Below are positions 31-10,394 of a stretch of 22,468 nt of DNA, piece after piece. The position numbers and the translations under genes are program-made. This stretch comes from a virus, in IMG/VR virus record IMGVR_UViG_3300042865_000144, positions 1 through 22,468 of that record; one strand, 5' to 3'. A model generated the notes under the pieces. That model had not been told where the DNA came from. It made no database searches and worked only from the letters and a program-made list of their open reading frames with translations. The first letter of the stretch is position 1; each line of letters begins with the position of its first letter.

Positions 31-112
31 CAGCGTCATCTATCTTCTCACCACAAAAAGGCTTTCGTGGAAGAACACGCTTCACTAAACAGGCACAAAG
101 TTTTGCGTTCAT
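20..112 (-). CDS. 30-residue Cys-containing micro-ORF
   Basis: The ATG at 112-110 overlaps the WhiB stop codon as ATGA, the coupling used throughout this window, and the frame closes with TGA at 22-20. The product starts MNAKLCACLVKRVLP, has three cysteines (C6, C8, C20) and an acidic end (DDADED). It resembles no family I know. Support comes only from the tight coupling and position, so it may be a chance ORF or a spacer between WhiB and the next gene. Confidence 0.35.
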   Translation of the reverse strand: MNAKLCACLVKRVLPRKPFCGEKIDDADED

Positions 113-366
113 TTAACCATCTCCTTTAACTCTCTACGCAACTTCGCTCGCTGAGGCGGTGTCATTCCACCGAAAACACCCCAACGATCATCAGTGTCCT
201 CTAACACAATAACCATATCTAAACATTCTTGACGCACCGAACAATTAGCGCAGATCGCTAACGCTTCATCGTAACGATGCTCATTCAAAGTTCTATGATC
301 GGGGAAGAATACGCTACCTTTTTTCCCACGACACGCTGCGCTCTCAGACCAATGTTCACGACTCAC
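109..366 (-). CDS. whiB: WhiB-family iron-sulfur transcriptional regulator
   Basis: WhiB-like proteins are actinobacterial regulators that bind a 4Fe-4S cluster through four cysteines and act with the housekeeping sigma factor. The full pattern is visible: C12 in SAACRG, then C39-x2-C42-x5-C48 (CANCSVRQEC), then the GVFGG turn at 63-67 and a basic tail (PPQRAKLRREL). I chose the GTG at 366-364, preceded seven bases upstream by GAGGT, giving 85 residues; a TTG at 381 is possible but less well placed. The gene overlaps the preceding ORF by 11 bases. Phage WhiB proteins are known from actinobacteriophages, where some act on host gene expression. It ends the recombination operon, consistent with early expression. 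The family call is firm; the target genes cannot be read from the sequence. Confidence 0.95.
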   Translation of the reverse strand: MSREHWSESAACRGKKGSVFFPDHRTLNEHRYDEALAICANCSVRQECLDMVIVLEDTDDRWGVFGGMTPPQRAKLRRELKEMVK

Positions 367-541
367 TAAAAAACCTCGCAATCAAATCGTTTACTTCACC
401 GAACTTCAAAACTGCTTCACGCAAATCATCTAACGATTTACGATCAGTGCCGTCAAAAACTACGACCTTTCTAGCGCAGTCAATTAAGACACCGATCGCA
501 AACTCGTAAGCCATCTGTAATTCTTCAGAAGGGTTGCTCAT
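356..541 (-). CDS. Small acidic hypothetical protein (61 aa)
   Basis: This 61-residue ORF starts with ATG at 541-539, 17 bases inside the end of the annealing-protein gene, and runs into the WhiB gene, which it overlaps by 11 bases. The sequence looks largely helical (EELQMAYEFAIGVLIDCARKV, then LDDLREAVLKFGEVNDLIARFF) and has no membrane segment or metal motif. I do not recognise a family. Compact coupling on both sides and ordinary codon use make it a likely real gene. It could be a partner of a neighbouring recombination protein, but nothing shows this. Confidence 0.65.
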   Translation of the reverse strand: MSNPSEELQMAYEFAIGVLIDCARKVVVFDGTDRKSLDDLREAVLKFGEVNDLIARFFSES

Positions 542-3122: not shown

Positions 3123-3138
3123 AAGCCTTTTAAGGCTT
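3123..3138. repeat. Inverted repeat at the end of the SprT gene
   Basis: AAGCCTT (3123-3129) and AAGGCTT (3132-3138) form a 7-bp inverted repeat with a 2-base spacer, overlapping the SprT stop codon. A further AAGCCTT lies just downstream (about 3110-3116). No U-tract follows on either strand, so this is not a convincing intrinsic terminator. Confidence 0.4.
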
Positions 3139-3837
3139 CTCGTCTATCGCCGCATTCGGAAGCAACCAATCAATCCTGTCCTCAGCCTGCCCCTGAATAA
3201 TGTAATCAACCGAATAACCCCAAGTGCTGACCTTCGCAAAAGAGATCTCGCAACCCCAACGCCTCTGCCAGATATCTCGCAGGCAGTGATAGAACTCTCG
3301 TGAGTGAACATCTCTCGCACCGTTCCTAATTATCGGAGGAACTGCACAGTGACAAAGTTCGTGCGCTAACACTTCCCACACTCGCTGACTACGAGACACG
3401 CTTTGAGTCCGATCAACATTCACCTGTATGCGATTCGCCCAAGACTCGGCGTGTCCATACTGTCTGCCACGATTCTGTCCTCTCGCAATCACGATCTGCG
3501 GAAGTCGCTTGCCTTTGTGATACGGCTGCATCAAAGCCCAAATGCGTTCCGCCTCTTTCCGAATCATCTTCGCTCGTATCTCATCAACACGCTGCTGTTG
3601 TTTCTTCGGCTTCAACTTCTTTGCGATACGAACACGCTTTGCTTTTCGCTTCTGCCGAACTACAGCCGTGCGCTTCTCTCTCTGCTTCTCTAACGAAGGC
3701 GCTAACCGATCTACTAGCCTGCCTGACTTCGCCGAGCAAGGCAGACAGTATCGCCGCACATCATTCCTTCGTGGCTTTATCGGTGCCAATAGCCCGTCAT
3801 TGCAGATCGGGCATTTCCATCTCGCCTGTTTACTCAT
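3130..3837 (-). CDS. SprT-like zinc metalloprotease with N-terminal zinc finger
   Basis: The protein has an N-terminal treble-cysteine zinc site (C9-x2-C12, C31-x2-C34 in CPIC and YCLPC), a strongly basic helical linker (about 45-95) and a C-terminal protease core. The core holds the gluzincin motif H159-E160-x2-H163 (LAHELCH) and a later H178 in DVHSREFY, the usual third ligand of SprT-like enzymes. Cellular SprT/Spartan proteins cut DNA-crosslinked proteins; a similar DNA-bound substrate is plausible given the basic linker but is inference. The ATG at 3837-3835 follows the strong AGGAGG leader. It is likely cotranscribed with the zinc-ribbon gene upstream from the promoter at 4046-4072. The metalloprotease call is firm, the substrate unknown. 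Confidence 0.88.
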   Translation of the reverse strand: MSKQARWKCPICNDGLLAPIKPRRNDVRRYCLPCSAKSGRLVDRLAPSLEKQREKRTAVVRQKRKAKRVRIAKKLKPKKQQQRVDEIRAKMIRKEAERIWALMQPYHKGKRLPQIVIARGQNRGRQYGHAESWANRIQVNVDRTQSVSRSQRVWEVLAHELCHCAVPPIIRNGARDVHSREFYHCLRDIWQRRWGCEISFAKVSTWGYSVDYIIQGQAEDRIDWLLPNAAIDEKP

Positions 3838-5804: not shown

Positions 5805-6030
5805 TAGTTGTTCCTTCTGCGTGTTGGTCTAAATGTTTCTCTAACTTGTCATCTACCCTGTTCACCGTCTTGAATATCATTCGCAACTGTTGTTGAACAA
5901 TGGCGTGATCTTGACGGTTTTCAATCGCTGCTTCTCTCGCTTCCTTCTTAAACAACTGCATTAACCCGACAATAATTACGCCAATCGTGCTGATCAGCGC
6001 AACAACAATGGTAGCGAAAGCGTCAGACAT
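5779..6030 (-). CDS. Membrane-anchored coiled-coil protein (DUF2746-like)
   Basis: Residues 5-27 (FATIVVALISTIGVIIVGLMQLF) form one clear membrane helix, followed by a charged coiled coil (EAAIENRQDHAIVQQQLRMIF, VNRVDDKLEKHLDQH) and a polar tail. This layout matches small DUF2746-like proteins near actinobacteriophage lysis genes; the family name is from memory. A role in lysis, such as holin partner or spanin-like function, is suggested by the 1-base stop/start overlap with the endolysin gene. It lacks an evident lipobox. Confidence 0.75.
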   Translation of the reverse strand: MSDAFATIVVALISTIGVIIVGLMQLFKKEAREAAIENRQDHAIVQQQLRMIFKTVNRVDDKLEKHLDQHAEGTTNGKTAKRN

Positions 6031-6524
6031 TATGCGACAGGCTTTAATGCTTGAGCGAACGCTTCACGCATCGCATCAGGGTTATCAGCCATCGCTGGCG
6101 AAATCTCGGCGTGAAACCAATCACCCATAGGCGCACCAGTAATGGTCTTTGTGTTGTAGATAGTCCACGAACTGCGATCGCATCGCCAACCTCTGCCGTG
6201 TGGCATCGGGAAGTAATCCAAGATGGCTTCAAGTCCGAAAGCGTCAGCGTTCTTCACAAGAAAATCCATCGCTTCCATCGCTTGCTTTCTTCCGCCTTCA
6301 GGTATGCCACGCTTCTCTTTTGCCATAAAACGGTAAGACAAATCAACTGCACGACCTGTTGCGTGAACACTTAAATCTTTTTTGCCTCGCATCGGGCGAT
6401 TCACATAACTGCCGTTATTCCAAATCGCAGGATATAAAGCGCACAACTGTTTAATAAAAACTGTTAGACCTTTGCGCTCGCCTTGTGCGAGTCCGTCTTT
6501 GTTGCCCGTGTATGGGCGTTTCAT
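6030..6524 (-). CDS. M15-type peptidase endolysin
   Basis: This peptidoglycan peptidase has the M15/VanY-type zinc site: S52-x-H54-x2-G57-x-A59-x-D61 (SVHATGRAVD) and D135-W-F-H138-A-E (GDWFHAEI). H54, D61 and H138 would hold zinc, with an acidic residue (D135) where many relatives have Glu. Members cleave D-Ala-D-Ala or L-Ala-D-Glu bonds; the exact bond cannot be read here. At 164 residues it is a catalytic domain only, with no wall-binding repeat and no signal peptide, so it needs a holin. The ATG overlaps the holin-like gene's stop (ATGA). The N-terminal YTGNKDG segment is unassigned. Confidence 0.87.
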   Translation of the reverse strand: MKRPYTGNKDGLAQGERKGLTVFIKQLCALYPAIWNNGSYVNRPMRGKKDLSVHATGRAVDLSYRFMAKEKRGIPEGGRKQAMEAMDFLVKNADAFGLEAILDYFPMPHGRGWRCDRSSWTIYNTKTITGAPMGDWFHAEISPAMADNPDAMREAFAQALKPVA

Positions 6525-6778
6525 TTTTTGATTCGTTTCTTAGCAACAGGTTTGCCATTACCGCCGAAAGCGTCAGAGATTTCTTGAGTTGTCAAATTGC
6601 CATCAACAGATGCTTTTGCAAGCCGTTCCGCAACTTGAGCGACAGCCGTGAAGCCTGCAAGTGCTGCCGCTTTCCAAACAGGAATACCGCCAACGATTGC
6701 CGAACCTGTAACTATCGCTAGTGCGTTCGCCATAAACAATGCAATCAATCTTTGTGCGATGTCTTGTGCCTTTTTCAT
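6521..6778 (-). CDS. Holin-like membrane protein
   Basis: The 85-residue product has an N-terminal amphipathic stretch, a hydrophobic segment at about 10-32 (RLIALFMANALAIVTGSAIVGG) and a second at about 34-50 (VWKAAALAGFTAVAQVA), then ASVDGNLTTQEISDAF and a basic tail (KKRIKK). Two helices and a charged C-terminus fit a small class II or r1t-like holin, and similar proteins lie next to lysins in actinobacteriophages. The start at 6778 has AAAGGA eight bases upstream, and the stop overlaps the endolysin start. A non-holin membrane role cannot be excluded. Confidence 0.72.
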   Translation of the reverse strand: MKKAQDIAQRLIALFMANALAIVTGSAIVGGIPVWKAAALAGFTAVAQVAERLAKASVDGNLTTQEISDAFGGNGKPVAKKRIKK

Positions 6779-6781
6779 AGA

Positions 6782-6943
6782 TCATTCCTTTGAACCAAGT
6801 GAGAGAACCGAGTGTATAACAATGCCGATACCTGTAAGCAGTAACGCCTGACGAAATGTTGTGCCAGACAGCGTAATCAAAACAAGCCCTGTGCCAACCC
6901 AAGTCCAAGTGTTATCTACAAAATAATCTTTAATCTTTTTCAT
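6782..6943 (-). CDS. 53-residue two-helix membrane protein
   Basis: This ORF reads MKKIKDYFVDNTWTWVGTG at its start and has hydrophobic segments at about 15-29 and 33-50 (ALLLTGIGIVIHSVLSLG), separated by a short FRQ turn, with a basic N-terminus. The ATG overlaps the upstream stop (ATGA), and the holin-like gene follows three bases later. It could be a second holin, an antiholin or a pinholin-like partner. No family recognised. Confidence 0.75.
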   Translation of the reverse strand: MKKIKDYFVDNTWTWVGTGLVLITLSGTTFRQALLLTGIGIVIHSVLSLGSKE

Positions 6944-8469
6944 CTGCTAATCCTTGTAGTCGGCATTGGAAGCATAGTCAAAAGACCGCCAATGGCAACA
7001 AGGCTTCTGCGCTGCGAAACAGGGATATTAGAACCATTCGGCACATACTGTTCAAACTGCGAACCGAAAATATCTATAACTTTCTCAAAAGTTTTCTTCA
7101 CCTTGCTTGGTGCTTCACTCAACACTTCGCTCATCTGCTCAGCCTGCTCAGCCGACAATTCCTCAACCACAACAGATTCAAAGATCTGCTCTGCCTGTTC
7201 TTCTGTTATCGCTTCAAGCACTACAGGCGACACTACGAGTTCAACCGCCTGCGACTGCGTGATATTCGTTGTCAAAATCGCCTCAACTATTGCCACCACT
7301 TTTTCAGGTTCGGCTTCAGCGATCTCGTCAAGTATCTGCTCAAACACTTCTTCGCTAATTTCGCCCGTTTCAGTAGTTTCTATCTCAATAACACGCTCTA
7401 GGATCGCATTAGAGCCTTCTAAATCGTCAATCTGAGGTAAGGGTAGGGTCGTTGCCGAATCGTCTAATACGGTTGAATTAGGAGCGTCTAATAGAGGCTC
7501 GCTAGATGTAGTCGTATCAATAGGCTCAAGCAAGGTAGTCTGAACCGATGTTTCTACTTCTATCGGCTCTTGTGTGGTATCTGGCAGGCTGGTCGTGGGG
7601 TCTGTGGTTTCTGGTGTGGTTTCTGTTGTCGTGGTCTCGTCTTGTTGCTCAGGTAGAGGCTCGGAAACAGGTGCGGAAGTATTGGGAACAGCAACGGGCT
7701 GATCGGTTGTAGAGGTTGTTTGTGTCGGTGTTGAAGGTAATTGAGTCGTTGTGGTCGTTGTGGTGGCAAGGGTTGTCGTGGTATCTGCAACTGATGTGGT
7801 TGTGCTTATCTGAACTGGCTCGCTGGTTGTGGTCGTTGATGTGGGAAGGGTTGTCGTAGATGCGCTGGTTGTTGTTTCGGGCAAAGTTGTCGTGGAAGTG
7901 GTTGTCGTGGAAGTGGTGCTTGTTGAAGTTGTGGTGGTGGATACGCCGTTCGTAGTGAACGCCGAATCAGGCACAATCGCCCAGCCAGTCTCATTAATGT
8001 TCCAAGCCAACATAAAACAAGTGCCACCGCCATTCTCATAAAACCAGCCGTCAAGCGCATAAGACCCAGCAACAAACTGTTCAGAAGTTTCAGCAGACCA
8101 AGAACAACTTTTATCATTCCAAGTGCCGAACTCTGTTCCACCGATCTTCACCGTGCCACCATCATCGGCAGCAACCATAAACTTAATCGTCTGATTCTCA
8201 GGCACAGCAATAAAGCCCGTGTAATGAACCATAAACATATCTGTAGGGCAATCACCGAACGGTTCACCGTCAAAGTTCCTATTGATGTTGTTCTCTAATT
8301 CGCTATAGCAGATCGGATAGGTGTCATCTGATCTTGTTGGCGGTATCTCGCTGATCGTGTAACCGACAGCGTTCAAACCGTAAACAGGTTCAGCGTTTGC
8401 TGTTTGTGGAAAAACTGCGAACAAGATTGCTGGTAGCGGTATAAGCCACCTAGTTAAATTGCGACCCAC
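6940..8469 (-). CDS. Secreted PA14-domain protein with Thr/Ser-rich stalk
   Basis: A signal peptide is clear: basic start, hydrophobic core LIPLPAILFAVF and an AxA-type site (TANA, cleavage near 26). Residues about 30-172 resemble a PA14 domain: VHYTGFIAVPENQTIKFMV then A-DDGG-TVKIGG and a Trp/Tyr-rich end, with several cysteines (C54, C74, C122, C151) that could pair. About 177-345 is a Thr/Ser/Pro-rich mucin-like stalk, then an acidic helical region and a short C-terminal hydrophobic patch (SLVAIGGLLTMLPMP). PA14 domains often bind carbohydrate. I chose GTG at 8469-8467 because the GTG at 8490 lacks a ribosome-binding site; neither site is strong. A sugar-binding protein on the infected cell surface is the simplest reading, since virion proteins rarely have signal peptides. 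Adhesion, receptor masking or superinfection exclusion are all inference. Confidence 0.8.
   Translation of the reverse strand: MGRNLTRWLIPLPAILFAVFPQTANAEPVYGLNAVGYTISEIPPTRSDDTYPICYSELENNINRNFDGEPFGDCPTDMFMVHYTGFIAVPENQTIKFMVAADDGGTVKIGGTEFGTWNDKSCSWSAETSEQFVAGSYALDGWFYENGGGTCFMLAWNINETGWAIVPDSAFTTNGVSTTTTSTSTTSTTTTSTTTLPETTTSASTTTLPTSTTTTSEPVQISTTTSVADTTTTLATTTTTTTQLPSTPTQTTSTTDQPVAVPNTSAPVSEPLPEQQDETTTTETTPETTDPTTSLPDTTQEPIEVETSVQTTLLEPIDTTTSSEPLLDAPNSTVLDDSATTLPLPQIDDLEGSNAILERVIEIETTETGEISEEVFEQILDEIAEAEPEKVVAIVEAILTTNITQSQAVELVVSPVVLEAITEEQAEQIFESVVVEELSAEQAEQMSEVLSEAPSKVKKTFEKVIDIFGSQFEQYVPNGSNIPVSQRRSLVAIGGLLTMLPMPTTRISR
7440..7941 (-). repeat. Low-complexity Thr/Ser-coding stalk region
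   Basis: On the plus strand this is a GT-rich stretch (mainly GGT, GTT, GTC and GTG triplets); on the coding strand it gives long runs of Thr with Ser, Pro and Glu. It includes a perfect 15-bp tandem duplication of gttgtcgtggaagtg at 7886-7900 and 7901-7915. Such tracts change length by slippage or recombination, so stalk length may vary among relatives. Confidence 0.85.
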
Positions 8470-8777
8470 GCTAGTTCTTCTTCGTTCCACTCATACGGAT
8501 TATCTGGCGAAGCATCGGCAGGTAAAGGTGTTGGCGGTTGCCATTTGTAGTTTGCATCAAGAGTCCACGATGGATACGGTTGTGGTGCGTAAAACAATTC
8601 GTTTTCGGCATCATACAAATAACCATCATTGCCGTATTTGTTTTCTACACCCCACTCCATCGGAACCCACAAAGACGCATCACCATAACGCTCAGGATTA
8701 TCTTCCAAAAACTCTCGTGCAACAACGGCAATACGGGTAACTACACCGTTTTCAACTTTAGCAAATGAGGCTTGCAT
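8454..8777 (-). CDS. Small tail-associated protein (marine-phage type)
   Basis: The product starts MQASFAKVENGVVTRIAVV and continues with a Trp/Tyr/Pro-rich series: GNDGYLYDAENELFYAPQPYPSW, then a short W-Q-P-P-TPLP and YEWNEEELAWV. This is the layout of a small protein common near tail genes of marine and freshwater phages, whose function I do not know. I start at the ATG at 8777-8775, which has GGAG seven bases upstream and matches the conserved FAKVENG start; a further-upstream start would add 12 residues. It overlaps the sulfotransferase gene by 20 bases and the PA14 gene by 16. A tail-fibre or chaperone role is guesswork. Confidence 0.72.
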   Translation of the reverse strand: MQASFAKVENGVVTRIAVVAREFLEDNPERYGDASLWVPMEWGVENKYGNDGYLYDAENELFYAPQPYPSWTLDANYKWQPPTPLPADASPDNPYEWNEEELAWVAI

Positions 8778-9516
8778 ACATACTCCATTCGTCAAGACGA
8801 TTACATTTGTCAATCAATTCATCAGATAATTCAACATCAACTGTGCGCCGACTAATTTGTGGGCGAACATCGTGCTGCCCAACAAGATTATAGACATCAT
8901 CATTTTCTTTATGCGTGTTTATAATTTCATCAAGATTGTGATTAAACGATTCCCAACCACAATGCTCATAGATATGCTTAAGTGTCGTTTGCGTGTCATC
9001 AACAAGTTCATCATAAGTTACGAAAATAAACTCGCCGTTGTTGTTTTTTCTTGCCCATTCAACACCAGCAAGCGAACGCATAATCGGCTCACTACCATCA
9101 TTAAGCAAACCAACTTCTAAATCTTGCCAACCGTTTGCTTTGCGAAGCGACATAAACGAAGCAACAATTTCAACCATCGGTCTAACAAGCACAATCACTT
9201 TTGGTGTGTTGTCAAAGTATTGGTTCAGGATTTGCATATTGGCTGGCAAAGTCCAAGACCGACATTTATCAACAACAATCGGTTTTTTTATATCGTTGTA
9301 ATAAGTGTGTGGTATCGGTGCAACAAGTTGATTTATTAAATCTTTTTTGCTTGCCTTCATCTGTTCAGAATTAATAGCCGATTGTTGCATATCCCACATC
9401 AGTTGGCATACCGCCGAATTACCTTCGGCGTGTATCTCAGGATTTTGCGACAAGATACTTGAAAGCAAAGTTGAGCCTGTGCGTGGCAAACCACTAAGCG
9501 CAACAAACTGTTTCAT
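8758..9516 (-). CDS. P-loop sulfotransferase
   Basis: The enzyme moves a sulfuryl group from PAPS to a hydroxyl or amine. The 5'-phosphosulfate loop is SGLPRTGSTLLSS at 8-20, and the 3'-phosphate site is VIVLVRPMVEIVASFMS with R112 and S120. VVDKCRSW at 81-88 is a further family-like segment. I start at ATG 9516-9514, which overlaps the upstream stop as TGATG and follows AAGG; a TTG at 9540 adds eight residues. Sampled lines at 8881, 9181 and 9301 contain 16, 21 and 20 G+C of 60, against 31 of 60 at 11341, so the gene is more AT-rich than tail genes and may be acquired. The substrate is unknown; cell-surface glycan or tail glycoprotein are both possible. Confidence 0.88.
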   Translation of the reverse strand: MKQFVALSGLPRTGSTLLSSILSQNPEIHAEGNSAVCQLMWDMQQSAINSEQMKASKKDLINQLVAPIPHTYYNDIKKPIVVDKCRSWTLPANMQILNQYFDNTPKVIVLVRPMVEIVASFMSLRKANGWQDLEVGLLNDGSEPIMRSLAGVEWARKNNNGEFIFVTYDELVDDTQTTLKHIYEHCGWESFNHNLDEIINTHKENDDVYNLVGQHDVRPQISRRTVDVELSDELIDKCNRLDEWSMYASLIC

Positions 9517-10394
9517 CAGACCTTGAATCTGATATAGCAAACACCTGAACCACCAACAGAAGTGCTTGAATTAGTAACACCACCACCACCGCCACCACGA
9601 TTAGCGGTAGGCGTTGCTGCATTAGTATTTACTGTTCCGTTTGCGCCACCATCTGTTCCTGTTCCAGGACTTGAAGCGTGTGAACCACCACCACCACCAG
9701 CAACACGGGTTGTGTTTGCTGATTGACCAAGCCAAGCAGAAATATCTACGCCACTTCCACCATTGCCACCGACACCAGAAGTTCCTGCTTGTCCTACACC
9801 GCCCATGCCACCACCACCACCGCCGCCTTGACCAGAAGTGCCCTGTCCTGCGCCACCTGCGTAACCTAAACCTGTCAAAATACTTTCACCAGCAGTCCCT
9901 GCTTGTCCGCCAGCACCACCGTTTGCAGCACTAGTTGCACCATGGCTAAATGCACCGCCTTGATACTGTCCGCCACCACCACCGCCGATAGCAGTAACAA
10001 CACCAGCCAAAGAAGTTATTTTTCCAATTTTGACAAATTGAGTCGTATCGTCACCAGCAGTTCCACCAGCAGCAACATCAATAGCATAAGTAGCAGCATC
10101 TAAAAAAACTGTCTGAATAGGGCTGTTGCCTAAAACTTGACCGCCACCACCGCCACCAGCAGGATATCCAGACGAACTACCACCAGCACCACCACCACCG
10201 ATAAGAAGAACATCAAACAAACCTGCTTGAGAAACAACAAGATTGCTGTCACTTGTAAAAGTTAAAAGAGTGTAAGCCTGAGATGACACCGTGATAGATG
10301 AACTCGTACCGCCTGTAGCAACACCATAAGCATTAGCAGACAAAACTGTGCCAGTGTTAGATGAAGAAACATAGCCAAGACGGTTGCGGCTCAT
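9516..10394 (-). CDS. Glycine-rich distal tail protein, likely receptor-binding
   Basis: The N-terminal 80 residues are Ser/Thr-rich strands (SSITVSSQAYTLLTF, AGLFDVLLIGGGGAGG). The rest is dominated by Gly runs of four to seven residues (for example GGGGGGGMGGVGQAG), ending in GGSGVCYIRFKV. Similar C-terminal GGSG-x-x-YIRF endings and Gly clusters occur in phage glycine-rich adhesins, where polyglycine strands form a sandwich whose loops contact the host. By analogy it should lie at the tail tip or fibre. It is coupled to the 120-residue tail gene by ATGA and leads by one base into the sulfotransferase. Role is inferred from composition and place. Confidence 0.72.
   Translation of the reverse strand: MSRNRLGYVSSSNTGTVLSANAYGVATGGTSSSITVSSQAYTLLTFTSDSNLVVSQAGLFDVLLIGGGGAGGSSSGYPAGGGGGGQVLGNSPIQTVFLDAATYAIDVAAGGTAGDDTTQFVKIGKITSLAGVVTAIGGGGGGQYQGGAFSHGATSAANGGAGGQAGTAGESILTGLGYAGGAGQGTSGQGGGGGGGMGGVGQAGTSGVGGNGGSGVDISAWLGQSANTTRVAGGGGGSHASSPGTGTDGGANGTVNTNAATPTANRGGGGGGVTNSSTSVGGSGVCYIRFKV

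Follow-up and report, generated by a model that had tools for sequence, protein, structure and literature searches.

A phage PA14 protein with an exchangeable head and a putative anchor shared with actinobacterial surface proteins

Background

Why would a tailed phage carry, between its tail and lysis genes, a gene whose product is laid out as a secreted cell-surface protein, and where would such a protein end up? The question is raised by a linear IMG/VR virus record of 22,468 bases, analysed over its whole length and hereafter called the window. An initial annotation had described this product as a signal peptide, a PA14-like domain, a Thr/Ser/Pro stalk and a short hydrophobic C-terminal patch, possibly derived from the host. 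Here the parts of the protein are delimited, followed through viral contigs and bacterial genomes, and weighed for what they say about its destination and its use.

Results

Gene neighbourhood and host

The main genes of the window are coded on its minus strand, in the order portal-like, capsid (Phage_capsid match, 3.4e-11), tape measure, tail genes and a Gly-rich tail-fibre-like gene, continuing with a sulfotransferase, a small gene, the PA14-protein gene, a holin-like and an endolysin-like gene. The small gene (8454..8813, minus strand, 119 aa) matches phrog_7759, of unknown function, at 1.5e-12, and overlaps the start of the PA14-protein gene. The holin-like gene (6521..6778, minus strand, 85 aa) is weakly similar to the holins of phrog_443 (0.026); its best PHROG, phrog_26427, is labelled nuclease, a doubtful label for a small hydrophobic protein. 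Weak matches to Peptidase_M15_4 and to PHROG endolysins define the endolysin-like gene (6030..6524, minus strand). The location between tail and lysis genes, as initially annotated, is found both in the window and in most relatives: wherever enough flank is available, the PA14-protein gene mostly lies between genes of the tail-fibre region and holin-like/endolysin-like genes, large phages being different. Such a position suggests late expression.

The sulfotransferase (8761-9519, minus strand; Sulfotransfer_3, 1.6e-17; phrog_27463, 6.6e-55) is part of the tail-fibre region, a short distance upstream of the PA14-protein gene, in a cluster also present in a few relatives (L002, L003, L020, L021, L023), and might act on fibres or on host glycans. 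A SprT-like protein (3133-3837, minus strand) is barely over the Pfam cut-off (7e-06). An actinobacterial host is indicated by a WhiB-like protein encoded in the window (112-381, minus strand; Pfam Whib, 4.5e-16); the use of WhiB as an indicator of actinophages has been discussed (PMC10202952).

Layout of the protein and its signal peptide

The gene (6940..8469, minus strand) runs from a GTG start at 8469 to a stop codon at 6942-6940 and encodes 509 aa, exactly as annotated; its start codon, within V-G-R, is common to many relatives. Signal peptide, PA14 head, Thr-rich stalk and helical C-module follow one another in an overall layout that is kept in hundreds of viral contigs and is thus not due to chance.

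Residues 1-26 (VGRNLTRWLIPLPAILFAVFPQTANA; 8392..8469, minus strand) look like a Sec-type signal peptide, predicted by motif reading: a basic N-terminus is followed by the hydrophobic core WLIPLPAILFAVF and by an A-x-A-type motif, which in 79 of 80 relatives stands immediately N-terminal to the mature domain. The signal peptide of the initial annotation is borne out by these features.

The PA14 head

The head (residues 27-175; 7945..8391, minus strand) was delimited by AF2 modelling, Foldseek, VIA, profile search and conserved columns. Its AF2 model, obtained with 74 relatives, has a pLDDT of 93 and a pTM of 0.88, and is matched by VIA to the RsgI3 PA14 domain (6qe7) with Z 18.2 (rmsd 2.0, 137 aligned), to MpPA14 with Z 15.8 and to Flo5 with Z 14.0, the yeast flocculin/Epa folds (Flo1, Flo5, Epa) giving Z 13-14; profile search reaches RsgI3 PA14 with an E of 2e-12. 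The PA14 domain formerly placed at residues 27-172 is therefore well founded. As to its recognition by HMM, 72 of 74 relatives match Pfam PA14 (PF07691, best E 1.4e-7), whereas the window protein alone scores 16-17 bits, below the curated cut-off of 24 bits. Since uncultured tailed phages were already known to carry PA14 domains in other proteins, the domain alone is not new.

Asp77-Asp78 and four Cys residues are unchanged in all 74 head relatives. The Asp pair aligns with the ADDG motif of MpPA14, in which the equivalent residues hold the sugar-binding Ca2+ (PMC8092209); by analogy, the phage head probably binds a glycan in a Ca2+-dependent manner. Since most members have Ala, Trp, Asn or His at the position aligned to Gln156 of MpPA14, the specificity of the head may vary.

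Exchange and conservation of heads

PA14-head relatives are found in at least 544 IMG/VR contigs, and C-module relatives number at least 569. In a head-independent census, for which loci were gathered via the endolysin (58 usable), PA14 sits on the C-module in 42 and the C-module bears another, absent or truncated head in 14, while two loci have no C-module. Two contigs, L226 and L227, carry endolysins 96% and 95% identical to that of the window, and their signal peptide region is 83.5% identical, but similarity is lost at 8388-7939 and comes back from 7938 at 93-94%. The gap coincides with the PA14 head, which is swapped for a short unrelated one; at the level of these alignments, the head is shown to be an exchangeable cassette.

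A common alternative in the PA14 slot of many related phages (L111, L133, L152 and others) is a second beta-type head of about 130 residues, here called E2, strongly conserved and with conserved Cys, for which neither a Pfam match nor a meaningful PDB profile match was obtained. Other arrangements include a stalk without a head (L244) and, on a 105-kb contig (L040), two heads with a stalk between them.

Pairwise comparison of 79 distinct loci shows PA14 to be better conserved than the tape measure in 97% of pairs, than the fibre in 100% and than the C-module in 94%, figures inflated by the retrieval of most of these loci through PA14 similarity; in members retrieved via the C-module, the head is still about 56-63% identical to that of the window. 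The phages have one or the other of two tail modules, unrelated to each other, and heads compared between the two types share 57-87% identity. A link between head and tail type was considered and rejected, and no link to a receptor was found, because PA14 accompanies both modules.

These data bear on whether the protein belongs to the virion, as a tail-associated receptor-binding protein set beside the tail fibre. The gene does follow the tail-fibre region, uncultured tailed phages have PA14 domains in further proteins as well, and the cassette swap resembles the exchange of fibre tips. Tail receptor-binding proteins, however, are assembled in the cytoplasm and have no signal peptide, while its motif is present in nearly all relatives (79/80); moreover, the anchor is common to chromosomal surface-type proteins, as detailed below, and one gene type is used by phages of both tail modules, which are unrelated. 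Given the signal peptide and the host-type anchor, a virion protein was rejected as the main reading and appears most improbable.

Stalk and C-module

The stalk (7435..7944, minus strand), defined by composition, contains 67 Thr, 21 Ser and 19 Pro in 169 residues (40% Thr), in full agreement with the Thr/Ser/Pro stalk of the initial annotation; its length in relatives ranges from about 117 to 400 residues. Beyond it lies the C-module (6943..7335, minus strand), a helical region of about 130 residues recognized from alignments, from an AF2 model (pLDDT 77) and from kinship to chromosomal surface proteins, which ends with the motif YVPxGSxIPVxxRR and a short hydrophobic helix. Comparison of the model with known folds gave no confident match, and no matching model was found in Pfam and NCBIfam. 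The most diverse alignment of the module was too variable for a pattern scan, and a narrower one was used instead.

The hydrophobic patch previously noted at the C-terminus is real and conserved, but is not a separate feature, being the helix that closes the C-module. Its best 17-residue Kyte-Doolittle mean is 1.33, weak for a lone TM segment. A stand-alone TM anchor was rejected on this ground, a partner ORF being the better explanation.

A proposed two-TM partner ORF

The proposed membrane partner is a 53-aa ORF (6782..6943, minus strand), shorter than the usual length cut-off and absent from the initial annotation, which overlaps the stop codon of the PA14-protein gene within an ATGA and has two hydrophobic stretches flanking a TLSG motif. 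Inspected for this TM unit, the 139 distinct C-module genes whose downstream sequence is long enough have it as a separate downstream ORF in 125 cases and fused C-terminally in 13, never in both forms; in one it is lacking. Among the 125 separate ORFs, an overlap of 4 or 1 bases with the upstream stop codon is seen in 105. In a control motif search, a TM-unit ORF was found after 143 of 149 C-module genes, versus 37 of 1492 other genes. Independently, a single family, phrog_29041, matches the 53-aa ORF of the window at 1.8e-24 and, at 4.3e-5, the tail of a bacterial protein. From the fusion of the TM unit to the C-module in some genomes and its adjacency in others, we infer that the two act together.

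A two-TM protein of 53 aa has the size of a small holin, and the gene pair directly precedes the holin-like and endolysin-like genes, so that one may think of a lysis accessory, in which the small protein would be holin-like, the long one a wall-binding helper, and the pair would open the envelope. This is improbable: a separate holin-like gene is present downstream, and the TM unit is also fused or adjacent to surface-type proteins of bacterial chromosomes, where lysis makes no sense.

The putative anchor in actinobacterial chromosomes

In two actinobacterial MAGs, the C-module turned up in chromosomal genes located amid ordinary metabolic genes. Sampling of further genomes located it in 14 of 200 from the family of these MAGs and in 3 of 298 from the order; at phylum level it was found in 2 of 396, which are both among the matches of the family search as well. 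The family is, we suspect, Ilumatobacteraceae. The search for the C-terminal end in actinobacterial surface proteins, which had been proposed as a check, was thus productive. All inspected bacterial loci are flanked by ordinary chromosomal genes. The proteins (L094, L095, L208-L219) are chromosomal and of surface type, one per genome where present. When complete, they feature a signal-peptide-like start, a low-complexity stalk, mostly Thr-rich, and a TM unit either fused or adjacent; their heads are RCC1 and/or DUF4082, or are lacking altogether. Members of 48-49% GC resemble the phages in that their C-terminus is short and the partner is a separate ORF. The C-module and the two-TM unit are apparently an undescribed actinobacterial surface-anchoring pair, literature searches having returned no description of a C-module/TM gene pair. 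The initial annotation had likened the stalk to secreted proteins of planktonic actinobacteria: the resemblance is indeed actinobacterial, but stalk and anchor match one family, not planktonic actinobacteria in general. A link between the phages and this family is suggested by two things, the shared genes and the WhiB protein.

When C-modules are arranged in a tree (134 rows), those of hosts are scattered over separate positions among those of phages, and at least three changes are required by the starred branches; the tree is coarse, being based on few columns, and gives no direction of transfer. Within the bacterial genomes sampled, no PA14 was found on the C-module anchor, a combination seen only in viruses. 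The closest PA14 relatives in genomes of the host family, as found by profile search of the 200 genomes, are 33-42% identical and belong to lipoproteins without a C-module. These lipoproteins (L287-L289) have an LSACG lipobox and Thr-rich stretches, two of them occur in tandem at one locus, and some finish with a TM segment and a basic tail; judging from similarity, they are a possible source of the phage head. A low-sensitivity scan of two short PA14 peptide patterns over 84,980 species found no relative. With the pattern scan blank, family relatives at only 33-42% and the C-module absent from them, the head was rejected as a recent host gene. The host origin proposed for the gene is tenable for the anchor, which is host-related; the head itself is, by its sequence relationships, virus-type. 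In broader terms both halves look like bacterial surface-protein material, on account of the host C-module proteins and of the PA14 lipoproteins of the host family.

The occurrence of the same anchor and partner in a gene present once per host genome lends itself to a further explanation, in which the anchor matters more than the head: the phage copy would compete for a place in the membrane, removing or diluting the host C-module protein, which may itself be a phage receptor. The nesting of host copies among phage copies in the tree and the headless phage version (L244) are in line with it. We consider such a replacement unlikely, as the phage brings its own TM partner, making competition for that of the host unnecessary, and as the highest conservation, that of the PA14 head, would be left unexplained.

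Discussion

Taken together, the parts of the protein favour display at the cell surface. The initial proposal that the protein is displayed on the infected cell is probably right, because its anchor is the one used by chromosomal surface-type proteins of actinobacteria. For the reading as a whole, surface display, through a C-module/TM anchor that would have been captured from the host, of a head that binds glycans with the help of Ca2+, leaving purpose aside, we estimate a probability of roughly 0.65.

After Sec-dependent export late in infection, the protein would be retained at the membrane of the cell by its C-module together with the TM partner, and the stalk would carry the head outward, where it would bind a glycan in the presence of Ca2+. 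By covering or tying up surface glycans on the infected cell and its debris, the head might prevent further phages, progeny included, from adsorbing. Receptor masking, or superinfection exclusion, is the leading candidate for the main purpose and also the least certain step; we put it forward tentatively, at somewhat less than even odds. That the head stays conserved in phages whose tails are unrelated agrees poorly with each phage masking its own receptor, and leaves room for adhesion as an explanation.

According to the latter, the displayed head would bind other cells or particles, as an adhesin or in flocculin-like fashion, and clumping or attachment would bring progeny near new hosts; the anatomy of display is identical to that assumed for masking, and the purpose alone differs. 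The order of parts is that of yeast PA14 flocculins (PMC8621652), the fold matches Flo1, Flo5 and Epa proteins, a head conserved among phages with unrelated tails is what a common ligand would lead one to expect, and host proteins with the shared anchor carry DUF4082 and RCC1 heads. On the other hand, a gene beside the lysis genes would leave only a brief time of action before burst, and some relatives have no head at all. An adhesive purpose, the next candidate after masking, seems rather doubtful.

It is also conceivable, though we would not favour it over the opposite, that these phages possess a dedicated display system, a C-module/TM-hairpin pair repeatedly exchanged between tailed phages of an actinobacterial lineage and their hosts and presenting interchangeable heads. 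With similar reserve, it may be supposed that these heads, whether PA14, the second beta-type, the short third one or none, govern sticking at the end of infection.

If display is confirmed, abundant aquatic phages would have a testable route for remodelling the host surface during infection, informative for an actinobacterial lineage whose adsorption and exclusion are little known. The split and fused forms expose an apparently undescribed actinobacterial anchoring pair, the exchangeable heads point to ligands worth testing, and the common anchor gives a means of connecting uncultured phages to their hosts by sequence.

The various known systems resemble the phage protein in different respects. 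MpPA14 and the RsgI3 PA14 domain share fold and Asp-Asp motif with the phage head, but are only about 18% identical and belong to other architectures, and the residue equivalent to Gln156 of MpPA14 varies in the phage family. Yeast flocculins combine a signal peptide, a PA14 lectin, a Ser/Thr-rich stalk and a C-terminal anchor (PMC8621652). The N-terminal PA14 head and Ser/Thr-rich stalk of Flo1, Flo5 and Epa1 recall the phage protein by similarity of layout, kinship not being implied; the latter is encoded by a bacterial virus and lacks both the GPI anchor and the flocculin repeats. Pfam scanning of the window proteins matched no flocculin model, and no GPI pathway is known in bacteria; for want of repeats and GPI, the phage protein was not filed as a flocculin.

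The Llp protein of T5 resides in the envelope of the infected cell and prevents adsorption both there and to debris (PMC9586334). Only the proposed purpose is alike: Llp is a small lipoprotein of the periplasm whose target is a protein receptor, with another mode of working and without sequence or structural kinship.

Closer in their parts are the actinobacterial C-module proteins described above, which share signal-peptide-like start, stalk, C-module and TM unit, and differ in having RCC1/DUF4082 heads or none and in being chromosomal rather than phage genes. In the Actinomycetia phage DSL-LC01, protein WJZ48438 (OQ999401) has a C-module 35.8% identical over 103 residues, but its heads are others and its TM unit is fused behind the C-module; this 129-kb phage is a metagenome assembly and was rejected as a cultured relative.

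An anchor pair with exchangeable heads appears to be new. Its nearest precedent is Cryophage (PMC7468147), in which type IX secretion sorting domains occur on exported proteins, a PA14 protein among them. In both cases an exported PA14 protein, encoded by a phage in a variable region of its genome, is placed on a C-terminal sorting or anchoring domain of the host; the Cryophage domain is of the Bacteroidetes T9SS type, without a described two-TM partner, and the host belongs to another phylum. The principle is thus equal, while anchor and host phylum are different.
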